A stretch of 22,021 nt of DNA from a virus, in IMG/VR virus record IMGVR_UViG_3300008459_000465, positions 1 through 22,021 of that record; one strand, given 5' to 3'. Below are positions 8,148 to 17,777 of the stretch, in pieces. The position numbers and the translations under genes are program-made. The notes under the pieces are model-generated. The model did not search any database and was not told the DNA's origin. It saw only the letters and a list, made by a program, of their open reading frames with translations. The first letter of the stretch is position 1, and each line of letters begins with the position of its first letter.

Positions 8148-9467
8148 ATGAAAATGAATAATTTCATTAAAATTTTAAAACAACAACCGAAACAAGGCGG
8201 CGTTCCAGTAACTAATAATTTATTAGCGGCAGTTGGACAAGCAAATCAAGCGGCTAGACAAACAACGAATGTTGTGACGCCGGCGCCTGCGGCTGCGGGT
8301 GTGTCGGCAGCTGTTAATCAACAAGTACAACAGTTGGCACAACAATTGGCTAATGAAATGGTTGCACAACAACAACAATCTCAGATATTAGCAAGAAACG
8401 GACGTGTATTTACAAAATTTGATGCAGTTAATGATATTGTAAAAAATCAAACAGAAGTGGTTACTGCTGGGTTATGGAGCAATGGTGTTGCTGGATTAAA
8501 AACATATTTTACATCATCAACACAAACTACAACTCAAAGAAAATATTACATTGATGTTTATCAAGCAACTCCGACAGCAACTGGTTCTGCAGTACAATAT
8601 TCATTAGCATTCGGACATGCATTAGGTAGTGGATCTGATTCGCAAGGTCAACTTAATGATTCGCCATCAAAAGCAATTTATTCACAATATCGTCAACTTT
8701 TACTTAATCCAAATGACAGTCGTTTTACCACTGCCGGGTCTGGTTCAACTGATTATGTTTATGTTGTTAATTTTAAACGTGATAGAGTAAAAGAACGTTT
8801 AGATGCAGGTAATTGGGAATTGCCATTACGAACTATTTCAAGTTCTAGACCTGCAAATGCAACGGGAAGTGTTAATGTATCTGGTACTACAGTTATTCAA
8901 TTAATTGATGATTCAACTATTTCAAATGGGTCTAATACAACATCTGGAAAAGTTTATAATATCGTATCAGGGTCGTTAAATGGTGGCGTATTTAATGTAT
9001 CAGCACCACAATATTATGGTATAGCTTATCCAGACCACGGCGTATTAGTGTTAGATGGTAAAATGTTAGATCAAAAATTAAATTTCCAAACTAATACTGG
9101 TTCTAGTTCAGAAGGTAATAATCATTTTGCATTATATCATTCAATATCAGGATCTGCATTACTTACCAATACTGCAACGGGAGATGCATATAGTTTCTTA
9201 GCAAGAAATTCTGAAAAAGTTACAAGCACACATTATTTTGTAAGAATTAAAAATGCTGAATATAATTTTTCAAATAATCCATCATACGTAACTGGGTCAG
9301 TTGGTGAAATTGCAGAATCAACATTTATTGGAGATCCTAAAACATATATTACTACGGTAGGTTTATATAATGACAGCCAAGAATTATTAGCGGTAGCTAA
9401 ACTTTCTAAACCGTTGTTGAAATCATTCCAAAGAGAAGCTCTTATACGAGTTAAATTAGATTTCTAA
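8148..9467 (+). CDS. Hypothetical structural protein with Gln/Ala-rich N-terminus
   Basis: A 439-residue protein with three visible parts. Residues 1 to about 80 are low-complexity and rich in Gln, Ala and Asn (VQQLAQQLANEMVAQQQQ), probably helical or coiled coil; inside it a PAPAAAG stretch is encoded by unusually GC-rich DNA (8274-8313). The middle is beta-rich (YYIDVYQATPTATGSAVQYS, YVYVVNFKRDRVKERLDAG). The last ~45 residues (TYITTVGLYNDSQELLAVAKLSKP, ending LIRVKLDF) match the C-terminus of the protein encoded at 9530-11104. No T4 orthologue recognised. A weak AGGT precedes the start. It is followed by a strong terminator, so it ends a transcription unit. A virion role is inferred from the neighbours. 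Confidence 0.6.
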   Translation: MKMNNFIKILKQQPKQGGVPVTNNLLAAVGQANQAARQTTNVVTPAPAAAGVSAAVNQQVQQLAQQLANEMVAQQQQSQILARNGRVFTKFDAVNDIVKNQTEVVTAGLWSNGVAGLKTYFTSSTQTTTQRKYYIDVYQATPTATGSAVQYSLAFGHALGSGSDSQGQLNDSPSKAIYSQYRQLLLNPNDSRFTTAGSGSTDYVYVVNFKRDRVKERLDAGNWELPLRTISSSRPANATGSVNVSGTTVIQLIDDSTISNGSNTTSGKVYNIVSGSLNGGVFNVSAPQYYGIAYPDHGVLVLDGKMLDQKLNFQTNTGSSSEGNNHFALYHSISGSALLTNTATGDAYSFLARNSEKVTSTHYFVRIKNAEYNFSNNPSYVTGSVGEIAESTFIGDPKTYITTVGLYNDSQELLAVAKLSKPLLKSFQREALIRVKLDF

Positions 9468-9529: not shown

Positions 9530-11104
9530 ATGGCAGAAATAAGATTACAACATACTGAAAATCCTTATAACGGAACATATCCTACTGTTTTTAAAAAAAT
9601 AGATATTTCTGATATAGGTGTTTCTCCATTTCAAGTTTATAAATCTTGGACAATTGTATCTGGTAGTATTACATCAAGTTTATTGCCCTTGCAAGGTATA
9701 TATTCAAATGTATTGCCAGATTTGGATACAGAATTAACATATAATGATGCATCTAATATTGATGGCAGTTTACAATCTGTTATATATTATTCTATTAATC
9801 ATTTATTCTATAAATACAGAACGCAACCAATAAATACATTCGGTCCGAATGATGTCAATAAAACTAAAAAAGGATTATTTCAAACCGCATCTGTTTTTTC
9901 TATACCACAAGTAAAGATTGGCGAAGGAATAAAACCAGCATCATTTACATTTACATCATCTGTATCAGGATCATATTCAAGTGATAGATATGGTAATATT
10001 ATTAACACCGCATTTAATACTTCTTCAATTGTTACCGATGTAAAATTTTATGAAGGCTTCAATGAATATTTTGATACTTCTAGAATTACATATAATTCAG
10101 AGGGAGTTTCATATATTCCAGGTATTACTACCACAACTGTGCAAAAACGTAGTTTAGGTCATGCTGCAAAATTTGATGGTTCGGGTTATATTAAACAATC
10201 GATTGACGGAAATTATGATCGTGATCATAATTATGCGATATCATTTTTTATTAGTGGAGCAAATGCAACTACTTCTAATCAATTGATATTAGCAAAAGCA
10301 TCTAGTTCATTATCTCCAGTATATCCATTTAAAATTGAATTGAGCGGTAGTAATCAGTTGATTTTTTCTGCTGCAGGTAGTACTACATTTAAAGCACAAA
10401 TTACATCATCAATTGTTGTTACTGGTTCATGGTATCATGTAACTTGTCAAAAAGTTAATAATACATTAGCAATGTTTATTAACGGAACATTGCATTCTGC
10501 TGTAACTAGTTCATTGCTTCAAAGATCATCATCGCCATTTACTGCTTCTGCTAGAATTGATAATTTTGATTCATTATCTATCGGAGGCTATTCTGCAACT
10601 AGTTTTAATTTGCAAGGCTGTATAGACGAAATACGAATATTTAATAAATCATTAACTAACACTCAGGTAACTAATTTAGCTAATAGATCTGAAGGCGGTT
10701 CTGCATTGCAAACTCAATATGTAGGAAATGTATTTGGACAACAAGGAATTATAGTATTCTCATCGCCAGATTATCGAGTTAATGATTTATTGAAAACACC
10801 GTATACTGCATCATATCGTAGTACAAAAACTTTGTATGAAATGAATGTTGTAACACGTTTAGATTCTGGAGATTTTAATATGTCATTGAATCCAACTATT
10901 ACACAAGATAACAATGAAACATATTTACCATTTGCATCAAGTAGTGTATTTGCTCCTTATATAACAACGATTGGGTTGTATGACAATTTTGGTCAACTTT
11001 TAGCAATTGGAAAATTAGCACAACCAATTCGCAAACGTAATGATGTTGATATGAACTTCTTAATTCGTTTAGATTTAGATAAAGATATAACATTTAAAGG
11101 ATAA
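9530..11104 (+). CDS. LamG-domain tail protein
   Basis: A 524-residue structural protein. About residues 215-385 make a clear LamG/concanavalin-A-like jelly roll: AAKFDGSGYI, YAISFFISG, GSWYHVTCQ, LAMFINGTLHS, DSLSIGGYS and CIDEIRIFNKSLTNTQV. This is the pattern of LamG_3 domains, which commonly bind glycans or ligands. The C-terminal ~50 residues (PYITTIGLYDNFGQLLAIGKL, then LIRLDLD) match the C-terminus of the protein encoded at 8148-9467, so the two may share a docking or assembly element. The gene starts 6 nt after a terminator and has no Shine-Dalgarno; the stop overlaps the following ATG. Likely a tail or baseplate appendage that touches the cell surface. Confidence 0.7.
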   Translation: MAEIRLQHTENPYNGTYPTVFKKIDISDIGVSPFQVYKSWTIVSGSITSSLLPLQGIYSNVLPDLDTELTYNDASNIDGSLQSVIYYSINHLFYKYRTQPINTFGPNDVNKTKKGLFQTASVFSIPQVKIGEGIKPASFTFTSSVSGSYSSDRYGNIINTAFNTSSIVTDVKFYEGFNEYFDTSRITYNSEGVSYIPGITTTTVQKRSLGHAAKFDGSGYIKQSIDGNYDRDHNYAISFFISGANATTSNQLILAKASSSLSPVYPFKIELSGSNQLIFSAAGSTTFKAQITSSIVVTGSWYHVTCQKVNNTLAMFINGTLHSAVTSSLLQRSSSPFTASARIDNFDSLSIGGYSATSFNLQGCIDEIRIFNKSLTNTQVTNLANRSEGGSALQTQYVGNVFGQQGIIVFSSPDYRVNDLLKTPYTASYRSTKTLYEMNVVTRLDSGDFNMSLNPTITQDNNETYLPFASSSVFAPYITTIGLYDNFGQLLAIGKLAQPIRKRNDVDMNFLIRLDLDKDITFKG

Positions 11105-11673
11105 TGATGATACGATTAAAACAATTACTTTATGAAATGACTGATCAGGAATTAGCTCAAATTGGCAGAAATATCGAGAGCAGCCGATTCCGATTCGTTG
11201 GTCAAGGTGATAACGGTCGGGTCTATAAATTAAATGATGAAGATTTAGTTTTTAAAATGACAACAAGTACAGATGAAATAGAAGTTGCACGTAAAATACA
11301 AAATAAAATAACAGAATATTCTACATTTATTCCAGTTTATTATGTTGGTGATTTACGTGGCGTAACATCTGTATATGAAGATGTTATTTTAATGGCAAAT
11401 GCTGATAAATTACCGTCAGCATTAAAACGTGGTATTGATCGCATTGTTGAAAAATACAATCAATATTCATATGAGCAAGGCGGAGAAGTTTCTTTGTTCG
11501 ATTTTGTTAACGCAGCTGGATTGAAACGTGTTGACCCGATCATAATGAATTTTATTAAAGCACTTCAAATAGATATTAACAAACTAGGAATCCCGGATCT
11601 AGATTTAGATTTAGATTTTAAATCTTCCAACATTATGATTTGGTCTGGAAAAATGGTCATGGTTGATTGGTGA
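11104..11673 (+). CDS. Minimal protein-kinase-like protein with putative capsid-targeting N-terminus
   Basis: A 189-residue protein with a recognisable but truncated kinase-like fold. Visible elements are a glycine loop GQGDNG (G33, G35, G38) before VYKL, an ATP-lysine candidate K51 (VFKMT), a hinge-like ILMANADKLP, a catalytic loop D171-F-K173-S-S-N176 (cf. HRDLKxxN), and VDW at residues 187-189 in place of DFG. The protein stops there, so the activation segment and C-lobe are absent. A DLDLDLDF repeat directly precedes the catalytic loop. The N-terminus MIRLKQLLYE is nearly shared with the next gene and ends in L-x-E, like prohead-protease sites of T4-type phages. Tandem ATGs lie at 11104 and 11107; the second has better spacing from AAAGGA (11096-11101). 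Activity is uncertain. Confidence 0.6.
   Translation: MMIRLKQLLYEMTDQELAQIGRNIESSRFRFVGQGDNGRVYKLNDEDLVFKMTTSTDEIEVARKIQNKITEYSTFIPVYYVGDLRGVTSVYEDVILMANADKLPSALKRGIDRIVEKYNQYSYEQGGEVSLFDFVNAAGLKRVDPIIMNFIKALQIDINKLGIPDLDLDLDFKSSNIMIWSGKMVMVDW
11107..11136 (+). other. Putative capsid-targeting peptide (MIRLKQLLYE)
   Basis: Ten codons whose first 15 bases (ATGATACGATTAAAA) are identical to those at 11688. The peptide is basic and hydrophobic and ends in L-Y-E, matching the (L/I)-x-E consensus at which the T4 gp21 protease cuts internal head proteins and Alt. The capsid role is inference. Confidence 0.4.
11596..11619 (+). repeat. In-frame hexanucleotide repeat GATCTA(GATTTA)2GATTTT
   Basis: Encodes DLDLDLDF immediately ahead of the kinase-like catalytic loop, sharing its last codons with that loop. 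Same unit and same GATTTT ending as the run at 3261-3290. It is in frame, so copy-number change would only alter loop length. Confidence 0.85.
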
Positions 11674-11687
11674 TAAAAAAGGAAATA

Positions 11688-11717
11688 ATGATACGATTAA
11701 AAAATTTTTTATTAGAA
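11688..11717 (+). other. Putative capsid-targeting peptide (MIRLKNFLLE)
   Basis: Second copy of the MIRLKxxLxE leader, ending L-L-E before AAP, again matching the (L/I)-x-E prohead-protease consensus. The proteins differ completely after the leader, which suggests the leader is a detachable targeting signal rather than evidence of gene duplication. Confidence 0.42.
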
Positions 11718-12389
11718 GCAGCTCCATTGGATAATGAATATTCATATGAGTATCCAAATGATACAATGTATGTATATGCATTTAAAGATAATAAATGGTG
11801 GGCAAAAAACATTAAAACAGGTAAAACCTTTAATATATCAGACGATACTAGATTTGCTGACAGTATTAAAAAATTAAATACATACTTTAAAAAATTAGAT
11901 ACTCCAGCTGATCAAGACACTAATATTCCTGAAGGAGATAAATTATTTCGTATGGAAAATGGTTTTTTAATTAATACTACAGCATACGAATCTATTAAAA
12001 CATCTTTTAAGATGGGTGATTTTGTAACAAGTGCTGCATTAAAATTATTAACATATGATAAATCATATAAAATACGTACTGGGATACAAGACAGTGTATT
12101 TCGAGGATTTGAAGCAGTAACAGTTGATCAGATAAATAAATCAAATGGTTCTATTAGCAGCGGATTTTTATCAAAGAATCAATCGGATTATAAGATAATA
12201 AATGCTAAAATTGGCGATATAATATCAGATCAAATTAAAGGCAATAAAATTTATGTAGCAAATAATTGGAAACAATCGGTAAATAAAAAACCAATTATTT
12301 ATACATATTTCTATATTAAAAGTAGTTCTAAATTTGAAGGTAAACCGAAATATTATTGGCTTCCAGGCAATTATATTGATGTAATTTAA
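11688..12389 (+). CDS. Putative capsid-targeted protein, weakly ADP-ribosyltransferase-like
   Basis: Start placed at 11688 because AAGGA sits at 11679-11683 and because the resulting MIRLKNFLLE matches the N-terminus of the gene before it; an in-frame ATG at 11667 would overlap that gene. The product is 233 residues. About 20-65 is a small Trp-rich module (YVYAFKDNKWWAKNIKTGKTF). The C-terminal half faintly follows the R-S-E layout of ADP-ribosyltransferases: VFRGFE (R139), SSGFLSKNQS (S162) and a terminal YYWLPGNYIDV (222-232) where active enzymes have ExE before LLPPG. The catalytic Glu residues are absent (Tyr instead), so the protein is either an inactive relative or unrelated. T4 packages Alt, an ART cut at its N-terminus, which makes the analogy attractive but unproven. 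Confidence 0.5.
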   Translation: MIRLKNFLLEAAPLDNEYSYEYPNDTMYVYAFKDNKWWAKNIKTGKTFNISDDTRFADSIKKLNTYFKKLDTPADQDTNIPEGDKLFRMENGFLINTTAYESIKTSFKMGDFVTSAALKLLTYDKSYKIRTGIQDSVFRGFEAVTVDQINKSNGSISSGFLSKNQSDYKIINAKIGDIISDQIKGNKIYVANNWKQSVNKKPIIYTYFYIKSSSKFEGKPKYYWLPGNYIDVI

Positions 12390-12408: not shown

Positions 12409-12891
12409 ATGAGAAAAAATCATTTTCACAGCTCAGGAAATTCAAAACGAGCTAATGCTTTAAAACATGGTTACAAATCAGGATTAGAACTAACAGTTTC
12501 AGAACAAATAAAAAGTACTGATTATCCTTTGAATTATGAGACAGAAACACTAAATTATATAGTACCTGAACGCAAAGCAAAATATACTCCGGATTTCGTT
12601 TTCGTTAAAAAGAATGGTAGCTTCATGTTTGTAGAAACAAAAGGACGATGGACTAGTGCTGATCGTTTAAAAATGAAACATGTATTAGCATCTAATCCTG
12701 GAATTGATATACGCATGGTATTTCAAGCACCTACTCAAAAAATATCAAAAGGTAGTCAAACTACATATGAAATGTATGCAAATAAGCTAGGTATAAATCA
12801 TGTTGCAAAAAAATCTATACCTGAAGAATGGATGGCAGAATGCTTGAAAAAAGACGAAAAACCAATCGATGTTAAAAAATTCTTTGTGTAA
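12409..12891 (+). CDS. Holliday-junction resolvase, T7 endonuclease I family
   Basis: A 160-residue nuclease very close in layout to phage T7 endonuclease I (gp3, 149 residues). It cuts four-way and branched DNA, trimming recombination intermediates before packaging. The PD-(D/E)xK catalytic set is intact: E27 in YKSGLE, D62 in YTPDF, and E76-T-K78 in VETKGRW, matching T7 E20, D55, E65 and K67. Further matches are IDIRMVF, KISKGSQTTY and the C-terminal IPEEWM. T7 endonuclease I works as a domain-swapped dimer. There is no Shine-Dalgarno before the ATG. It is followed by a 182-nt gap and then primase and Mre11-Rad50-like genes, consistent with a recombination module. T4 itself uses the unrelated endonuclease VII, so this is a different solution in a T4-like setting. 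Confidence 0.9.
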   Translation: MRKNHFHSSGNSKRANALKHGYKSGLELTVSEQIKSTDYPLNYETETLNYIVPERKAKYTPDFVFVKKNGSFMFVETKGRWTSADRLKMKHVLASNPGIDIRMVFQAPTQKISKGSQTTYEMYANKLGINHVAKKSIPEEWMAECLKKDEKPIDVKKFFV

Positions 12892-13073: not shown

Positions 13074-14018
13074 ATGAAGAATCTTAAACTTCTACAATTA
13101 TTAGAATCGGTACTAGGTAAAGGTAAAACTACTTCTGGTAATAATATTGCATTCTTCTCGCCATTTACTTCACACTATAAACCTAAATTAGAAATTGATA
13201 TCAATACAAATCATAATGGAGAAAATCCATGGCATTGTTGGATATCTGATAAAAAGGGTAGAACTATTTCTAGTTTGTTTAAACAAATGGGTTTACCAAA
13301 AGAACGTTTTGAACAACTAGCTAAAATAATTGAATCATCTAAGTATAGAAATCATGATGATAAAAAAGAAGTAACACAAACAATACAACTTCCTGCAGAA
13401 TATATTCCGTTGTGGAATAAAAAAAATACACCGGACTTTCGCAATGCAATTCATTATTTATCGTCTAGAGGCGTTACAATATTTGATATTTTAAAATATA
13501 GAATTGGTTATTGTGAATCCGGAGAATATTCCGGCAAAATTATTATACCGAGTTATGATTGCGATGGTCAATTAAATTATTTTGTTAGCAGAGCATTTTA
13601 TAAAGCTGATAAATTTAAACATAAGAATCCTAAGATATCAAAAGATATTATTGGTTTCGATTTAACTATAAACTGGTCACAGCCTATAGTTCTATGTGAA
13701 GGTGCATTTGATGCAATTGCAATTAAAAGAAATGCAATACCTTTATTTGGTAAAATTATTCAACCAGCACTTCAAAAAAAAATTATTGAAAAACGAGTAC
13801 GAGACATTTATATTTGTCTGGATGCTGATGCATTACGTAATGCAATACAGATTGCAGAACGTTTTATGGCAGAAGGATTAAATGTATATTTCGTAGAATT
13901 GCAAGATGATGATGCATCCGAATTAGGTTTTCGACAAATACGAGAAATATTAAATGAAACGGATGTATTAACATTCGAACGAGTTATGCAACTCAAAATG
14001 GATATGATATGGAAATAA
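13074..14018 (+). CDS. DNA primase, gp61/DnaG-like Toprim, degenerate zinc finger
   Basis: A 314-residue protein arranged like T4 primase gp61 (about 340 residues), which makes RNA primers for lagging-strand synthesis with the replicative helicase. The Toprim core is visible: E209 in LCEGAFDAI, D250-A-D252 in CLDADA, and a later DDDASELG. Upstream, RGVTIFDILKYRIGY and the KIIIPSYDCDGQLNYFVSRA segment match the linker and core of this family. The N-terminal zinc-finger position (about residues 23-75) keeps the spacing of CPxC...HCxxC (SPFTSHYK, then PWHCWISDKKGRTISSLFK) but only one Cys remains. It starts without a Shine-Dalgarno after a long AT-rich gap and overlaps the next gene by 10 nt, implying coupled expression. 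Confidence 0.78.
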   Translation: MKNLKLLQLLESVLGKGKTTSGNNIAFFSPFTSHYKPKLEIDINTNHNGENPWHCWISDKKGRTISSLFKQMGLPKERFEQLAKIIESSKYRNHDDKKEVTQTIQLPAEYIPLWNKKNTPDFRNAIHYLSSRGVTIFDILKYRIGYCESGEYSGKIIIPSYDCDGQLNYFVSRAFYKADKFKHKNPKISKDIIGFDLTINWSQPIVLCEGAFDAIAIKRNAIPLFGKIIQPALQKKIIEKRVRDIYICLDADALRNAIQIAERFMAEGLNVYFVELQDDDASELGFRQIREILNETDVLTFERVMQLKMDMIWK

Positions 14019-17000
14019 AACAAATAGATTCACACATTACTAAAATTGATAAAATTTTTCATGTTTCAGATATACATATTCGAACATTAAAACGTCATCG
14101 AGAATATCGTCAAGTATTTGAAAATCTATTTAATTATATTGAAACTCACGCAACAGGCAATAGTGTTGCAGTAGTTACTGGTGATATTGTTCATAGCAAA
14201 TTAGATATGTCTCCGGAACTAGTTCAAATGCTAGTAGATTTTTTTAATGGCTTTACGATTCCTACCGTTGTTATTTTAGGTAATCATGATATGAACCTAA
14301 ACAATATGCATCGTGTAGATGCAGTCTCACCCGTCTTAGATGTTATCAAGAATCCTAATATACATTTTATTAAAGAAAATGGTTTATTTGAATTAGGAGG
14401 CGCTACATGGAATCATATGGCTGTTGATAAGACTCCTGCAGATTATATTCGAGCAAAAGATTTTGATGCTACATATAAAATTGCAATGCATCATGGCGCT
14501 GTAAATACTGCTAAAACGGATATTGGGTATCAAATATCAAATGAACATGTTGGTATTGATTTGTTTGAAGGTCATGACATTACATTGTTAGGAGATATTC
14601 ATAAACCAGCACAGTTTTTAGATGCTGAAAAAACAATTGCATACCCAGGTTCATTGATTCAACAAAATCACGGAGAAGCATTAGACCATGGAATATTAAT
14701 TTGGGATCTAGAACGACGAACTGCAGATTTTGCTGAAATTGAAAATGAGTATGGATACGTAACAATTGAAACTCAAGGTTCTTCAATAGTTAATGCCCCA
14801 GCACGTATGCCGAAACGTCCTAGAATTCGTATTAAATTTAATGATACATCTGCATCGGATATGAAAAAACTTATTGCATCATTGCGCAAAAAGTATTCCG
14901 TAGAAGATATTACAATTCAAAGAACAATTGGCAGTTCGGCAACAGCAGCATCATCATCATTAGCAATAGGAAATGTACGTGATGTTGAATATCAAAACGT
15001 ATTATTAACAGAATATATTGACAATCATTTTCCACAAGCAACATCAGCAGAGATTGATGCAATTCGACATATTAACAGAACTATCAATTCAAAACTGCCA
15101 GCAGTAGAATCAGTACGGCATACAACATGGCATCCTATATCTTTTGAATTCGATAATATGTTTTCATATGGTGAAGGTAATATTTTAAATTTTGAAAATT
15201 TACAAGATGTATGTGGTTTATTTGCTGCAAATACATCTGGTAAGTCTTCATTGCTTGATGCAATTACTTATACTATTTTTGATAAATGTAGTAAAACAGG
15301 CAAAGCAAATGAAGTATTAAATAATAAGAAAGCTTGGTTCCGCGGAACGTTTAAATTTGAAATGAATGGTACAGTATATACTATCGAAAGACGCGGCACT
15401 CAAAATAAGAAAAAAGAAACACACGTTAAAGTAGATGTTGATTTTTATACCGATTCGGAAAATTTAAATGGCGAAGAGCGTAGTGAGACAAATAAAAATA
15501 TTCGTCGTTACTTAGGTACATATGATGATTTTATTTTAACTGCATTTTCATTGCAAGCTGATAACAATAATTTTATTGAAAAGTCTCAACGAGAAAGAAA
15601 AGATTTATTATCACAATTTTTAGATATTACGGTATTTGAACAACTTTATCAACTTGCTGCAGATGAAATTAAAGAAACAGCTGGAAAATTAAAAGAATAT
15701 AAGAAAACAGATTTTGCACAAATCATAATAGACGCCGATGCTATTATAAATGAAAATCACGAAACTATTCAATCTTTAGAAACTCAAGAAGATGAATTTC
15801 AAGAGCATCGAAATGATTTACAAAATCGTATTGTAACTTTAATTGAATCTAAATTACCAACTACATACGATGGTCCAGATATCGAAATATTAGAACAACA
15901 AGAAACTGGTTTAGTTGAAAAGATTGAAACATTGCAGTTAGATATTGAAACTGCAGAGCAACGAATATTTGAGTTAAAACAACAAAATGCTTCGCAGAAG
16001 TCTATCATTCAATCTCAATATAATTTAACAGAAATACAAACAAACATTGAAACGCATAAAAAACTGATTAAAATTCATAACGACCTCAGTGCGCGTATAA
16101 AAGAACAAAAAGGAATAATTGATGCAAAAGAAGAAAAAATTAAGCATCTTGAATCTCATGAATATGATCCAAACTGTAAATACTGTACATCTAACGTTTT
16201 CGTGCAAGATGCAATCGAAGCCCAAGATACGATTGATCAAGATAGAGCAATATTAACAGAGTTAGAACGTCGCTTTGATGAGTTAGAAACGGAAATTGAA
16301 TCAGTTTCTATATATCAAGTCCAATATGATGAATTGACACAATATTCGCAAACTATTAGAACAACGGCGACTAATATTGAACGCAAAGAACTTCAATTAC
16401 AACTTGCAGAATCTGAATTACAAACTCGAGAATCTGAATTAGAAACTGTTTTAGAACGACAAGATTCATTTAGAAAAAATGAAACAGCAATACTTCATAA
16501 TGCTCAAATTGATGTAAAAATTACATCTTGCAAACAAAACATAGAATCATTTAGTGAACAAATAAAAACAATACAAGAACAAATTAAATCATTGTTTGGT
16601 GCCATTGAAGTTGCAAAAACAAAACGAAGTGCGGCGATGTCACAACTAGATTCATATCGTCAACTGGAAACTGAATATAAAGCATATGAATATTATTTAG
16701 AATCAGTTAAACGAGATGGTGTTCCATATGAAATAGTAGCAAAAGCTCTTCCAAAAATTGAAGCAGAAATAAACAACGTGCTTAATCAAATTGTTGATTT
16801 TAACATGGTAATGAATACAGATGGTAAAAATATCAACGGATATATTATTTATGATGAAGATAATTTTTGGCCATTAGAATTAACAAGTGGAATGGAACGA
16901 TTTGTTTCATCATTAGCAATCCGCATTGCACTTATCAATGTGTCTGCTTTGCCTCGTCCAAATTTCATTGCAATTGATGAAGGTTGGGGAAGTTTAGATG

Positions 17001-17158
17001 CAGAACATATTTCATCAGTTGTAAATCTATTTGATTATTTTAGAACTAAATTTGATTTTTCAATTATTATTTCACACGTTGATTCTATGCGAGATATGGT
17101 AGATAATTTAATTGAAGTAAACAAACAAAACGGATACAGCCAGATTAATCATTCCTGA
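14009..17158 (+). CDS. Single-chain Mre11-Rad50 (SbcD-SbcC, gp47-gp46) fusion nuclease
   Basis: One 1049-residue reading frame joins both halves of the recombination nuclease usually encoded by two genes. The Mre11/gp47 half (1 to about 270) has all metallophosphoesterase motifs: D21-x-H23, G58-D59, GNHD at 91-94, HHG at 161-163 and GDIH at 195-198. The Rad50/gp46 half begins near 370 with Walker A AANTSGKS (406-413; the first Gly is Ala). A long coiled coil follows, with the zinc hook C723-K-Y-C726 near its middle, then signature SGME (960-963; usual SGGE), Walker B FIAIDE (986-991) and H-loop H1023. It should resect DNA ends in an ATP-dependent way to start recombination-dependent replication. 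It overlaps the primase by 10 nt and precedes a homing endonuclease gene. Confidence 0.9.
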   Translation: MEIKQIDSHITKIDKIFHVSDIHIRTLKRHREYRQVFENLFNYIETHATGNSVAVVTGDIVHSKLDMSPELVQMLVDFFNGFTIPTVVILGNHDMNLNNMHRVDAVSPVLDVIKNPNIHFIKENGLFELGGATWNHMAVDKTPADYIRAKDFDATYKIAMHHGAVNTAKTDIGYQISNEHVGIDLFEGHDITLLGDIHKPAQFLDAEKTIAYPGSLIQQNHGEALDHGILIWDLERRTADFAEIENEYGYVTIETQGSSIVNAPARMPKRPRIRIKFNDTSASDMKKLIASLRKKYSVEDITIQRTIGSSATAASSSLAIGNVRDVEYQNVLLTEYIDNHFPQATSAEIDAIRHINRTINSKLPAVESVRHTTWHPISFEFDNMFSYGEGNILNFENLQDVCGLFAANTSGKSSLLDAITYTIFDKCSKTGKANEVLNNKKAWFRGTFKFEMNGTVYTIERRGTQNKKKETHVKVDVDFYTDSENLNGEERSETNKNIRRYLGTYDDFILTAFSLQADNNNFIEKSQRERKDLLSQFLDITVFEQLYQLAADEIKETAGKLKEYKKTDFAQIIIDADAIINENHETIQSLETQEDEFQEHRNDLQNRIVTLIESKLPTTYDGPDIEILEQQETGLVEKIETLQLDIETAEQRIFELKQQNASQKSIIQSQYNLTEIQTNIETHKKLIKIHNDLSARIKEQKGIIDAKEEKIKHLESHEYDPNCKYCTSNVFVQDAIEAQDTIDQDRAILTELERRFDELETEIESVSIYQVQYDELTQYSQTIRTTATNIERKELQLQLAESELQTRESELETVLERQDSFRKNETAILHNAQIDVKITSCKQNIESFSEQIKTIQEQIKSLFGAIEVAKTKRSAAMSQLDSYRQLETEYKAYEYYLESVKRDGVPYEIVAKALPKIEAEINNVLNQIVDFNMVMNTDGKNINGYIIYDEDNFWPLELTSGMERFVSSLAIRIALINVSALPRPNFIAIDEGWGSLDAEHISSVVNLFDYFRTKFDFSIIISHVDSMRDMVDNLIEVNKQNGYSQINHS

Positions 17159-17160
17159 TA

Positions 17161-17173
17161 ATATTTATTTATA
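17161..17173 (+). promoter_or_regulatory. Candidate AT-rich promoter motif ATATTTATTTATA
   Basis: Fills the 16-nt gap between the Mre11-Rad50 fusion and the HNH gene, ending one base before the ATG at 17175. It resembles the motifs at 7453, 9495 and 17777. The spacing to the start codon would imply a nearly leaderless message if it is a promoter, so this is the weakest member of the set. Confidence 0.22.
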
Positions 17174-17174
17174 T

Positions 17175-17777
17175 ATGAATTATAAAAATATTCATGATTT
17201 AATTATTGATCGAGCTAAAAATCGAAATATAACAATATATACCGAAAAACATCATATTATTCCAAAATGTTTAGGCGGATTAAATACTGATGATAATATC
17301 GTTAGATTAACTGCTAAAGAACATTTTTTAATACATAAATTGCTATGTGAAATATATCCAGATAATAATAAGTTACACTACGCATTATGGAGAATGATGA
17401 ATCCGCAAAGTAAACGACATGAGCGAAGTTATAATATCAGTTCAACTGAATATGCTAGAAGACGAGAAATTCAACGCGAAGAAATACGTAAATTGGGCTT
17501 ATCTAATAAAGGTAAAAAACAAACTGCAGAATCAGTTGCAAAAAGAATTATATCAAATACTGGTAAAAAACGTACATCTGAAACTATAGAAAAATTAAAA
17601 CAACGTCCACAATCTACAAAAGGAATAAAAAAATCTACGCCTTGGAATGTAGGGAGAGTTCACTCAGATGAAACTAAACAAAAAATGTCAAATTCTCAAA
17701 AAGGTAAAATTACATCAGCCGAAACTCGTCGTAAAATTAGCGAAAGCGTTAAACGATATAAGAACACTCTTAACTAA
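17175..17777 (+). CDS. HNH homing endonuclease with NUMOD3 repeats
   Basis: A 200-residue free-standing homing endonuclease. About residues 24-57 form the HNH nuclease motif: EKHHIIPKCLGG (H26, H27), DNIVRLT (N41) and KEHFLIHKL (H50, H54). The C-terminal half is basic and carries several NUMOD3-type DNA-binding repeats (GKKQTAESVAKRI, GKKRTSETIEKLK, VHSDETKQKMSNSQKGK, TSAETRRKISESVKRY). Such genes cut allelic sites in related phages and spread by repair. The gene sits in a gap between a recombination gene and a tail gene, not inside an intron that I can see. No Shine-Dalgarno precedes the start. It is flanked on both sides by the AT-rich motif, so it may be a mobile insertion into a former single gap. 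Confidence 0.88.
   Translation: MNYKNIHDLIIDRAKNRNITIYTEKHHIIPKCLGGLNTDDNIVRLTAKEHFLIHKLLCEIYPDNNKLHYALWRMMNPQSKRHERSYNISSTEYARRREIQREEIRKLGLSNKGKKQTAESVAKRIISNTGKKRTSETIEKLKQRPQSTKGIKKSTPWNVGRVHSDETKQKMSNSQKGKITSAETRRKISESVKRYKNTLN

Follow-up and report, generated by a model that had tools for sequence, protein, structure and literature searches.

A short N-terminal leader on unrelated proteins of T4-like phages as a probable capsid-targeting sequence

The IMG/VR record IMGVR_UViG_3300008459_000465, 22,021 bp long and analysed here in its entirety (the window), derives from a T4-like phage and carries two adjacent genes with unrelated products that start with nearly the same ten residues. 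The window encodes, in this order, a baseplate wedge protein, tail-fibre-like proteins, the two leader-bearing open reading frames (ORFs), endonuclease I, a primase-like Toprim protein and a fused SbcD-SbcC-like protein. The first leader-bearing ORF (11107-11673, plus strand) encodes a minimal protein-kinase-like protein of 188 residues, for which 11107 is a likelier start than the alternative at 11104 (MMIRLK...), because it is the start common to the homologs. The second (11688-12389, plus strand) encodes a protein of 233 residues in a hypervariable cargo slot. The left edge of this slot is a tail-fibre-like protein with a concanavalin-A-like lectin domain (9530-11104, plus strand; PF13385, E = 5.7e-15), and its right edge is a T7 gp3-like phage endonuclease I (12409-12891, plus strand; PF05367, E = 3.5e-32); both are syntenic in relatives. 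Leader 1, MIRLKQLLYE, occupies positions 11107-11136 and leader 2, MIRLKNFLLE, positions 11688-11717, both on the plus strand, with cleavage predicted after Glu10, i.e. between bases 11136 and 11137 and between bases 11717 and 11718, respectively. The pattern MIRLKxxLxE is most probably a T4-type capsid-targeting sequence on swappable cargo proteins that would be injected into the host.

The original prediction had started from the resemblance of these two neighbours, and the resemblance is real: the first 15 bases (ATGATACGATTAAAA) are identical and the remainders of the proteins are unrelated. The leaders end in L-Y-E and L-L-E, in agreement with the proposed (L/I)-x-E rule. A degenerate version of the leader pattern matches the window exactly twice, at the two ORFs concerned, and has no match in 100 shuffles; further leaders, absent from the rest of the window, are numerous in relatives and in IMG/VR. 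Leader 1 is preserved in the kinase homologs, 81 of 86 distinct sequences having Glu10 and four more an LLE at residue 9; in a set of 32 homologs, which was collected with the leader pattern, Leu4 is invariant and residue 7 is Leu or Ile, and Leu8 is kept along with Glu10 in the kinase homologs. Leader 2 retains Leu4, Leu8, Glu10 and Ala11 in three close homologs of the second protein. Near-identical starts of adjacent genes are what chance, or a recent partial duplication of a gene start into its neighbour, could also produce, but with no match expected by shuffling, a leader on at least 122 unrelated clusters and its retention in homologs of both genes, such an origin is barely credible.

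To measure how widely the leader is spread, DNA patterns for MI[RK]LKxxLxE were scanned in IMG/VR (two scans, at least about 120 stretches each) and the matches pooled with other loci; ORFs of at least 60 residues with the leader at their start were clustered by BLASTP after removal of the first 12 residues. The leader heads at least 297 distinct ORFs in at least 122 clusters, 88 of which are single proteins, the counts being lower bounds from a partial sample in which related contigs are not independent and BLASTP may split distant homologs into separate clusters. A stop codon lies within 10 codons upstream in 224 of the 277 matches with ORFs of at least 60 residues, which places the leader at the N-terminus. 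When 120 representatives (one per cluster for most clusters, plus extra members) are aligned, they agree solely at M1, I2, L4, K5, L8 and E10, although most of these invariant positions are imposed by the search pattern and are no evidence by themselves. The same representatives match at least 50 Pfam families (E < 0.01), including Phage_lysozyme2, Phage_lysozyme, Hydrolase_2, LysM, Zeta_toxin/AAA_33, RimK ATP-grasp, NUDIX, RNase_T, 2'-5' RNA ligase, HD, ADPrib_exo_Tox and DnaJ. No defence theme was found among the leader proteins with PADLOC, which returned five scattered matches.

The identical 15 bases could also point to a purely nucleic-acid signal, such as a translation-initiation or recombination site that encodes a peptide incidentally. 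The usual codons of the leader are ATA/CGA/TTA/AAA, which makes the identity between the two window genes unremarkable. Among the matches listed, 345 leader genes yield 307 different 30-mers and 161 different leader peptides; every codon shows synonymous changes while the residues stay constant, and conservation thus resides in the peptide. This synonymous variation leads to the rejection of both a DNA-level signal, which is very improbable, and a recent duplication.

The role of the predicted cleavage residue was examined by a scan for MIKLKD[LIFM]L in which residue 9 onward was unconstrained, with bacterial and archaeal genomes as a control for the viral set. Glu10 is present in 95 of 105 distinct viral N-terminal ORFs among the matches listed, compared with a Glu frequency of 3-12% at residues 9 and 11-19 of the same set and, at residue 10, of 5-12% when every predicted gene in five related genomes or parts of genomes is counted. 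In the control, 27 N-terminal ORFs were found among 115 matches listed and only four of the 27 have Glu10 (Fisher P = 4e-14 for the comparison with the viral ORFs). This control and the shuffles together reject chance. Eight of the ten viral ORFs without Glu10 retain [LIMVF]-x-E at residues 9-16. Glu10 is therefore under selection, and a Glu that is kept yet able to shift register behaves as predicted for a protease site.

The N-termini in the T4 record offer a direct comparison: internal proteins IPII and IPIII start with MKTYQEFIAE, Alt with MELITELFDE and gp24 with MAKINELLRE. The propeptides of IPIII, Alt and gp24 align with the window leaders without gaps, sharing hydrophobic residues at positions 4, 7 and 8 and Glu10. 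In IPIII, the first 10 residues are enough for packaging; mutants identify residues 4 and 7 as the main determinants of targeting and residues 8 and 10 as those of processing, and internal-protein propeptides in general comprise 10-19 residues (PMC9026906, a review).

Two records of 160-169 kb are syntenic with the window and have the same gene order; most of their tail and replication proteins are 58-88% identical to those of the window, the kinase is 45-47% identical and the product of one short tail gene about 33%. Both encode an S77 protease, located about 18-19 kb from the kinase gene. The nearest named complete genome, that of Microcystis phage Mel-JY01 (53% identity in the baseplate protein), likewise encodes a Peptidase_S77 protein (E = 6e-30). 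A gp23-type capsid gene is present in 13 of 29 large leader-bearing records, the two syntenic ones among them, and each of the 13 also has S77; three records have S77 only, and the remaining 13, with neither gene, may be fragments or other phages. The demand of the original prediction for a prohead protease is thus answered in every leader-bearing record with a gp23-type capsid protein, and the window fragment itself has none. His85 and Ser140 of the T4 protease, presumably its catalytic residues, are conserved in the S77 proteases of the relatives. In their capsid proteins, [LIV]-x-E|[AS] is preserved close to the T4 gp23 cut point, the sites QLLDE|ATRTG, QLISE|ANRTG and QLVKE|ATSTG lying just before the region that aligns to mature T4 gp23. 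In a 368-kb record (G003; 71514-72392 and 91495-93003), the S77 protease and the gp23 match are each in two pieces, and the gp23 match holds one TAA, a pattern suggestive of inserts, introns or stop-codon recoding.

Leader genes are concentrated next to the protease. In the examined loci, 51 of 288 leader proteins share a locus with S77 and all 51 are encoded on the protease strand; 35 of the genes start within 0-1.5 kb and 42 within 0-3.2 kb downstream of S77, where about three would be expected by chance in 1.5 kb of a 160-kb genome. They include one family with its gene directly after the protease (L209) and another with its gene between protease and capsid gene (L217), the Mel-JY01 homolog of which begins MYEYVEYILE. 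A further Mel-JY01 protein (L011, 2405-3691; 52405-53691 of the genome) starts with MQFKQYILGE and matches the S-adenosylmethionine lyase family (PF23780, E = 4e-10); judged by its sequence, it is possibly a leader-tagged, injected anti-restriction enzyme. The head operon of Mel-JY01 (L010-L013) also contains a bS21 gene, as in the Bacteroidetes bS21 phage clade, yet this phage was recorded from Microcystis elabens; freshwater Bacteroidetes are the predicted hosts of bS21-encoding phages whose head genes are arranged similarly (PMC9723584).

Recurrence on unrelated proteins, conservation of Glu10, the T4 register, S77 in relatives and leader genes in the head operon lend strong computational support to the capsid-targeting role that the original prediction had assigned to the leader. 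Besides the limits on the leader counts given above, several points weigh against this role. Both leader genes of the window sit between tail-fibre and replication genes, outside the head operon. No prohead protease or head gene is found within the 22-kb window, a fragment that ends before the head region, and the protease of this phage is therefore deduced from synteny. The length removed from Alt is 7 residues (PMC9026906), so Alt may be cut before its residue 10 and its agreement in register is weaker than for IPIII. In the literature covered, no data on virion proteomes, cleavage or injection were found for these phages, and no virion proteomics for the cultured relatives Mel-JY01 and Flavobacterium phage immuto. 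Finally, several of the leader-bearing families (Phage_lysozyme2, Phage_lysozyme, Hydrolase_2, LysM) are peptidoglycan hydrolases, enzymes that are better known from tails and lysis. This lysozyme-type cargo complicates the assignment of the leader to the head: the enzymes might be ejected from the head, or the tag might have a second use in the tail.

The lysozyme and cell-wall-hydrolase families, together with the tail-fibre genes that adjoin the leader genes of the window, would also fit a general virion-assembly or tail/baseplate tag, or an inner-membrane anchor, on enzymes that act at adsorption, as tail lysozymes do. Such a tag would not account for the concentration of leader genes just downstream of the prohead protease or for a leader in the register of the T4 head propeptides, and it has no need of Glu10 and [LI]-x-E, which obey the protease rule and are kept despite a shift in register. 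A tail or membrane function is decidedly unlikely.

The kinase-like fold proposed for the first protein is supported by conserved predicted catalytic residues and structure prediction. Across 32 homologs with 43-84% identity to the window protein, K50, E57, D170, N175 and D187 are invariant and the Gly-rich loop GDNGRVY is largely conserved, the kinase roles of these residues (Gly loop, Lys, Glu, catalytic Asp, Asn and metal-binding Asp) being assigned by motif order. The AlphaFold model has a predicted local distance difference test (pLDDT) score of 82, and residues 1-8, within the leader, are disordered. Foldseek matches to this model are kinase folds, with APH(2'')-IVa as the best (E = 5.8e-4) and CK2alpha at a probability of 1.00; the probability is mostly 0.8-1.0 for the best matches, with template-modelling (TM) scores of only 0.3-0.47. 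The protein shares with APH(2'') and CK2alpha the Gly-rich loop, Lys, Glu, catalytic Asp, Asn and metal-binding Asp, but it differs from them in its length of 188 residues and in a minimal C-lobe, which stops at the metal-binding Asp-Trp. The protein has no match in Pfam, and no homolog was found among 50,697 phage records of annotated isolates. As judged from the model and the sequence, the protein has a minimal kinase fold, and the residues predicted to be catalytic are conserved.

The second protein has full-length homologs only in close relatives, and other leader proteins occupy the slot elsewhere. Residues 18-51 resemble a small module present in otherwise different phage proteins. Its suggested ADP-ribosyltransferase (ART)-like layout is not supported: Pfam, PHROGs, a PDB profile search and AlphaFold (pLDDT 37) give no support for an ART identity. 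R139 and G140 are invariant in four homologs, and no Glu after this pair is conserved, so that there is no conserved R-S-E order and the ART assignment is unsupported. The sole finding in its favour is a match between another, unrelated leader protein and an ADP-ribosyltransferase family.

The kinase gene is conserved in relatives, and the interval that separates it from endonuclease I varies in length, from a few bases up to 2.4 kb, and in the proteins that it encodes. Occupants include a peptidase-like protein (L006) with weak Pfam matches below the cut-offs (extensin-like and M15, E 0.003-0.03) and a protein of 600 residues (L357). Among 46 distinct N-termini of insert proteins, compiled by hand and mostly from the first insert ORF per locus, 45 contain [LIVMF]-x-E at residues 7-22; such a site can fall by chance into a 16-residue stretch, and the strength of the observation lies in two recurring classes rather than in the bare count. 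In one class the site lies near residue 10, in the other near residues 14-17 (MxxLLEQIIRxxLFE|Q). Other leader types were also seen. An extended leader with two L-x-E-like sites, MxxLxxILAENMxRFGTKNLxE, heads several unrelated proteins in both syntenic relatives (G001 (L320-L328), 16011-17364 and 87353-88873; L332). At least four proteins of the cultured Flavobacterium phage immuto (L014-L016), in which a prohead protease is annotated, share the start M(x)nF(D/N)L(K/R)xFL(V/T)EN(K/R)LTxN.

The composition and turnover of the cargo also bear on whether the tagged proteins have a structural role only, filling or scaffolding the head as a prohead core with no effector action in the host. One tagged family is a core-like protein of the head operon, and gp22, gp67 and gp68 of T4 are scaffold proteins that are consumed. 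A structural role alone would not explain why the cargo includes kinase-like, NUDIX, RimK ATP-grasp, exonuclease, 2'-5' RNA ligase, HD and ADP-ribosyltransferase families, or why it varies so quickly at one locus, as injected T-even internal proteins do at theirs (PMC12373910). An exclusively structural function is unlikely.

Three other features of the window lie outside the cargo slot. The adjoining tail-fibre-like proteins (8148-9467 and 9530-11104) have similar terminal segments, TTVGLYNDSQELLAVAKLSKPL... and TTIGLYDNFGQLLAIGKLAQPI..., as if they had a common C-terminal module. An SbcD-like phosphoesterase and an SbcC-like ATPase form a single chain of 1049 residues (14009-17158), which is matched over its whole length in only a few related phages, most phage matches covering the C-terminal part only. 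An HNH/NUMOD3 homing endonuclease gene (17175-17777; phrog_655, E = 4.5e-47) separates the SbcDC-like gene from the next structural gene and is absent from the corresponding place in the 169-kb relative.

By analogy with T4, a capsid-targeting leader would act during assembly of the prohead, where the hydrophobic residues 4 and 7 would dock its ten residues onto the scaffold core. The gp21-family S77 protease would then cut after Glu10 at (L/I)-x-E and free the mature protein inside the head, from where it would be injected together with the phage DNA. The conserved minimal kinase may phosphorylate some host target as infection begins, and the second protein, as occupant of the hypervariable slot, may have an anti-host or counter-defence function. 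The broader proposal is that one leader grammar in two length classes (site near residue 10 or near residues 14-17) labels all injected proteins of a large T4-like group that is mostly uncultured; these would comprise more than 100 families, a conserved injected kinase among them, with cargo swapped at dedicated slots. The chances of this proposal appear slightly better than even. Injected phage proteins act before phage gene expression and include inhibitors of host defence, and they are known only for a few cultured phages. If the proposal is correct, injected proteins could be recognised from sequence alone, metagenomic T4-like genomes would yield lists of candidates, some with enzyme domains, and the leader could serve directly as a tag with which to load proteins into these phages.

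In the literature covered, which did not extend to subscription journals and preprints, the term "capsid targeting sequence" appears confined to T4 and its engineered derivatives, P1, SPN3US and P22, and no report of such a leader in environmental T4-like phages was found. The giant phages SPN3US and phiKZ have N-terminal propeptides on inner-head proteins that are removed by the prohead protease after x-x-E (PMC5694885), but these are mostly longer than 100 residues and the SPN3US motif is A-x-E. The capsid-targeting sequence of P1 DarB likewise sits at the N-terminus and directs an anti-restriction protein into the head (PMC9024508), in a different phage lineage; it is longer than 9 and shorter than 30 residues and has no consensus among the Dar proteins. 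T-even internal-protein loci with anti-GmrSD inhibitors (PMC12373910) resemble the slot described here in being variable and in encoding unrelated proteins that have the leader alone in common, whereas one conserved leader-tagged kinase marks the slot in the present phages. The closest counterpart is the capsid-targeting sequence of T4 IPI, IPII, IPIII and Alt, together with the gp24 propeptide: in both systems, a short N-terminal leader with hydrophobic residues at positions 4, 7 and 8 and Glu10 is placed on unrelated proteins. The T4 leader has 10 residues in IPIII and is cut after (L/I)-x-E by an S77 protease, whereas cleavage, packaging and injection are predictions from sequence in the present case. 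The leader described here differs from that of T4 in its consensus, MI[RK]LKxxLxE instead of MKTYQEFIAE, in the number of protein families that bear it, which far exceeds the handful of T-even phages, and in coexisting with a second, longer class that has its site near residues 14-17.

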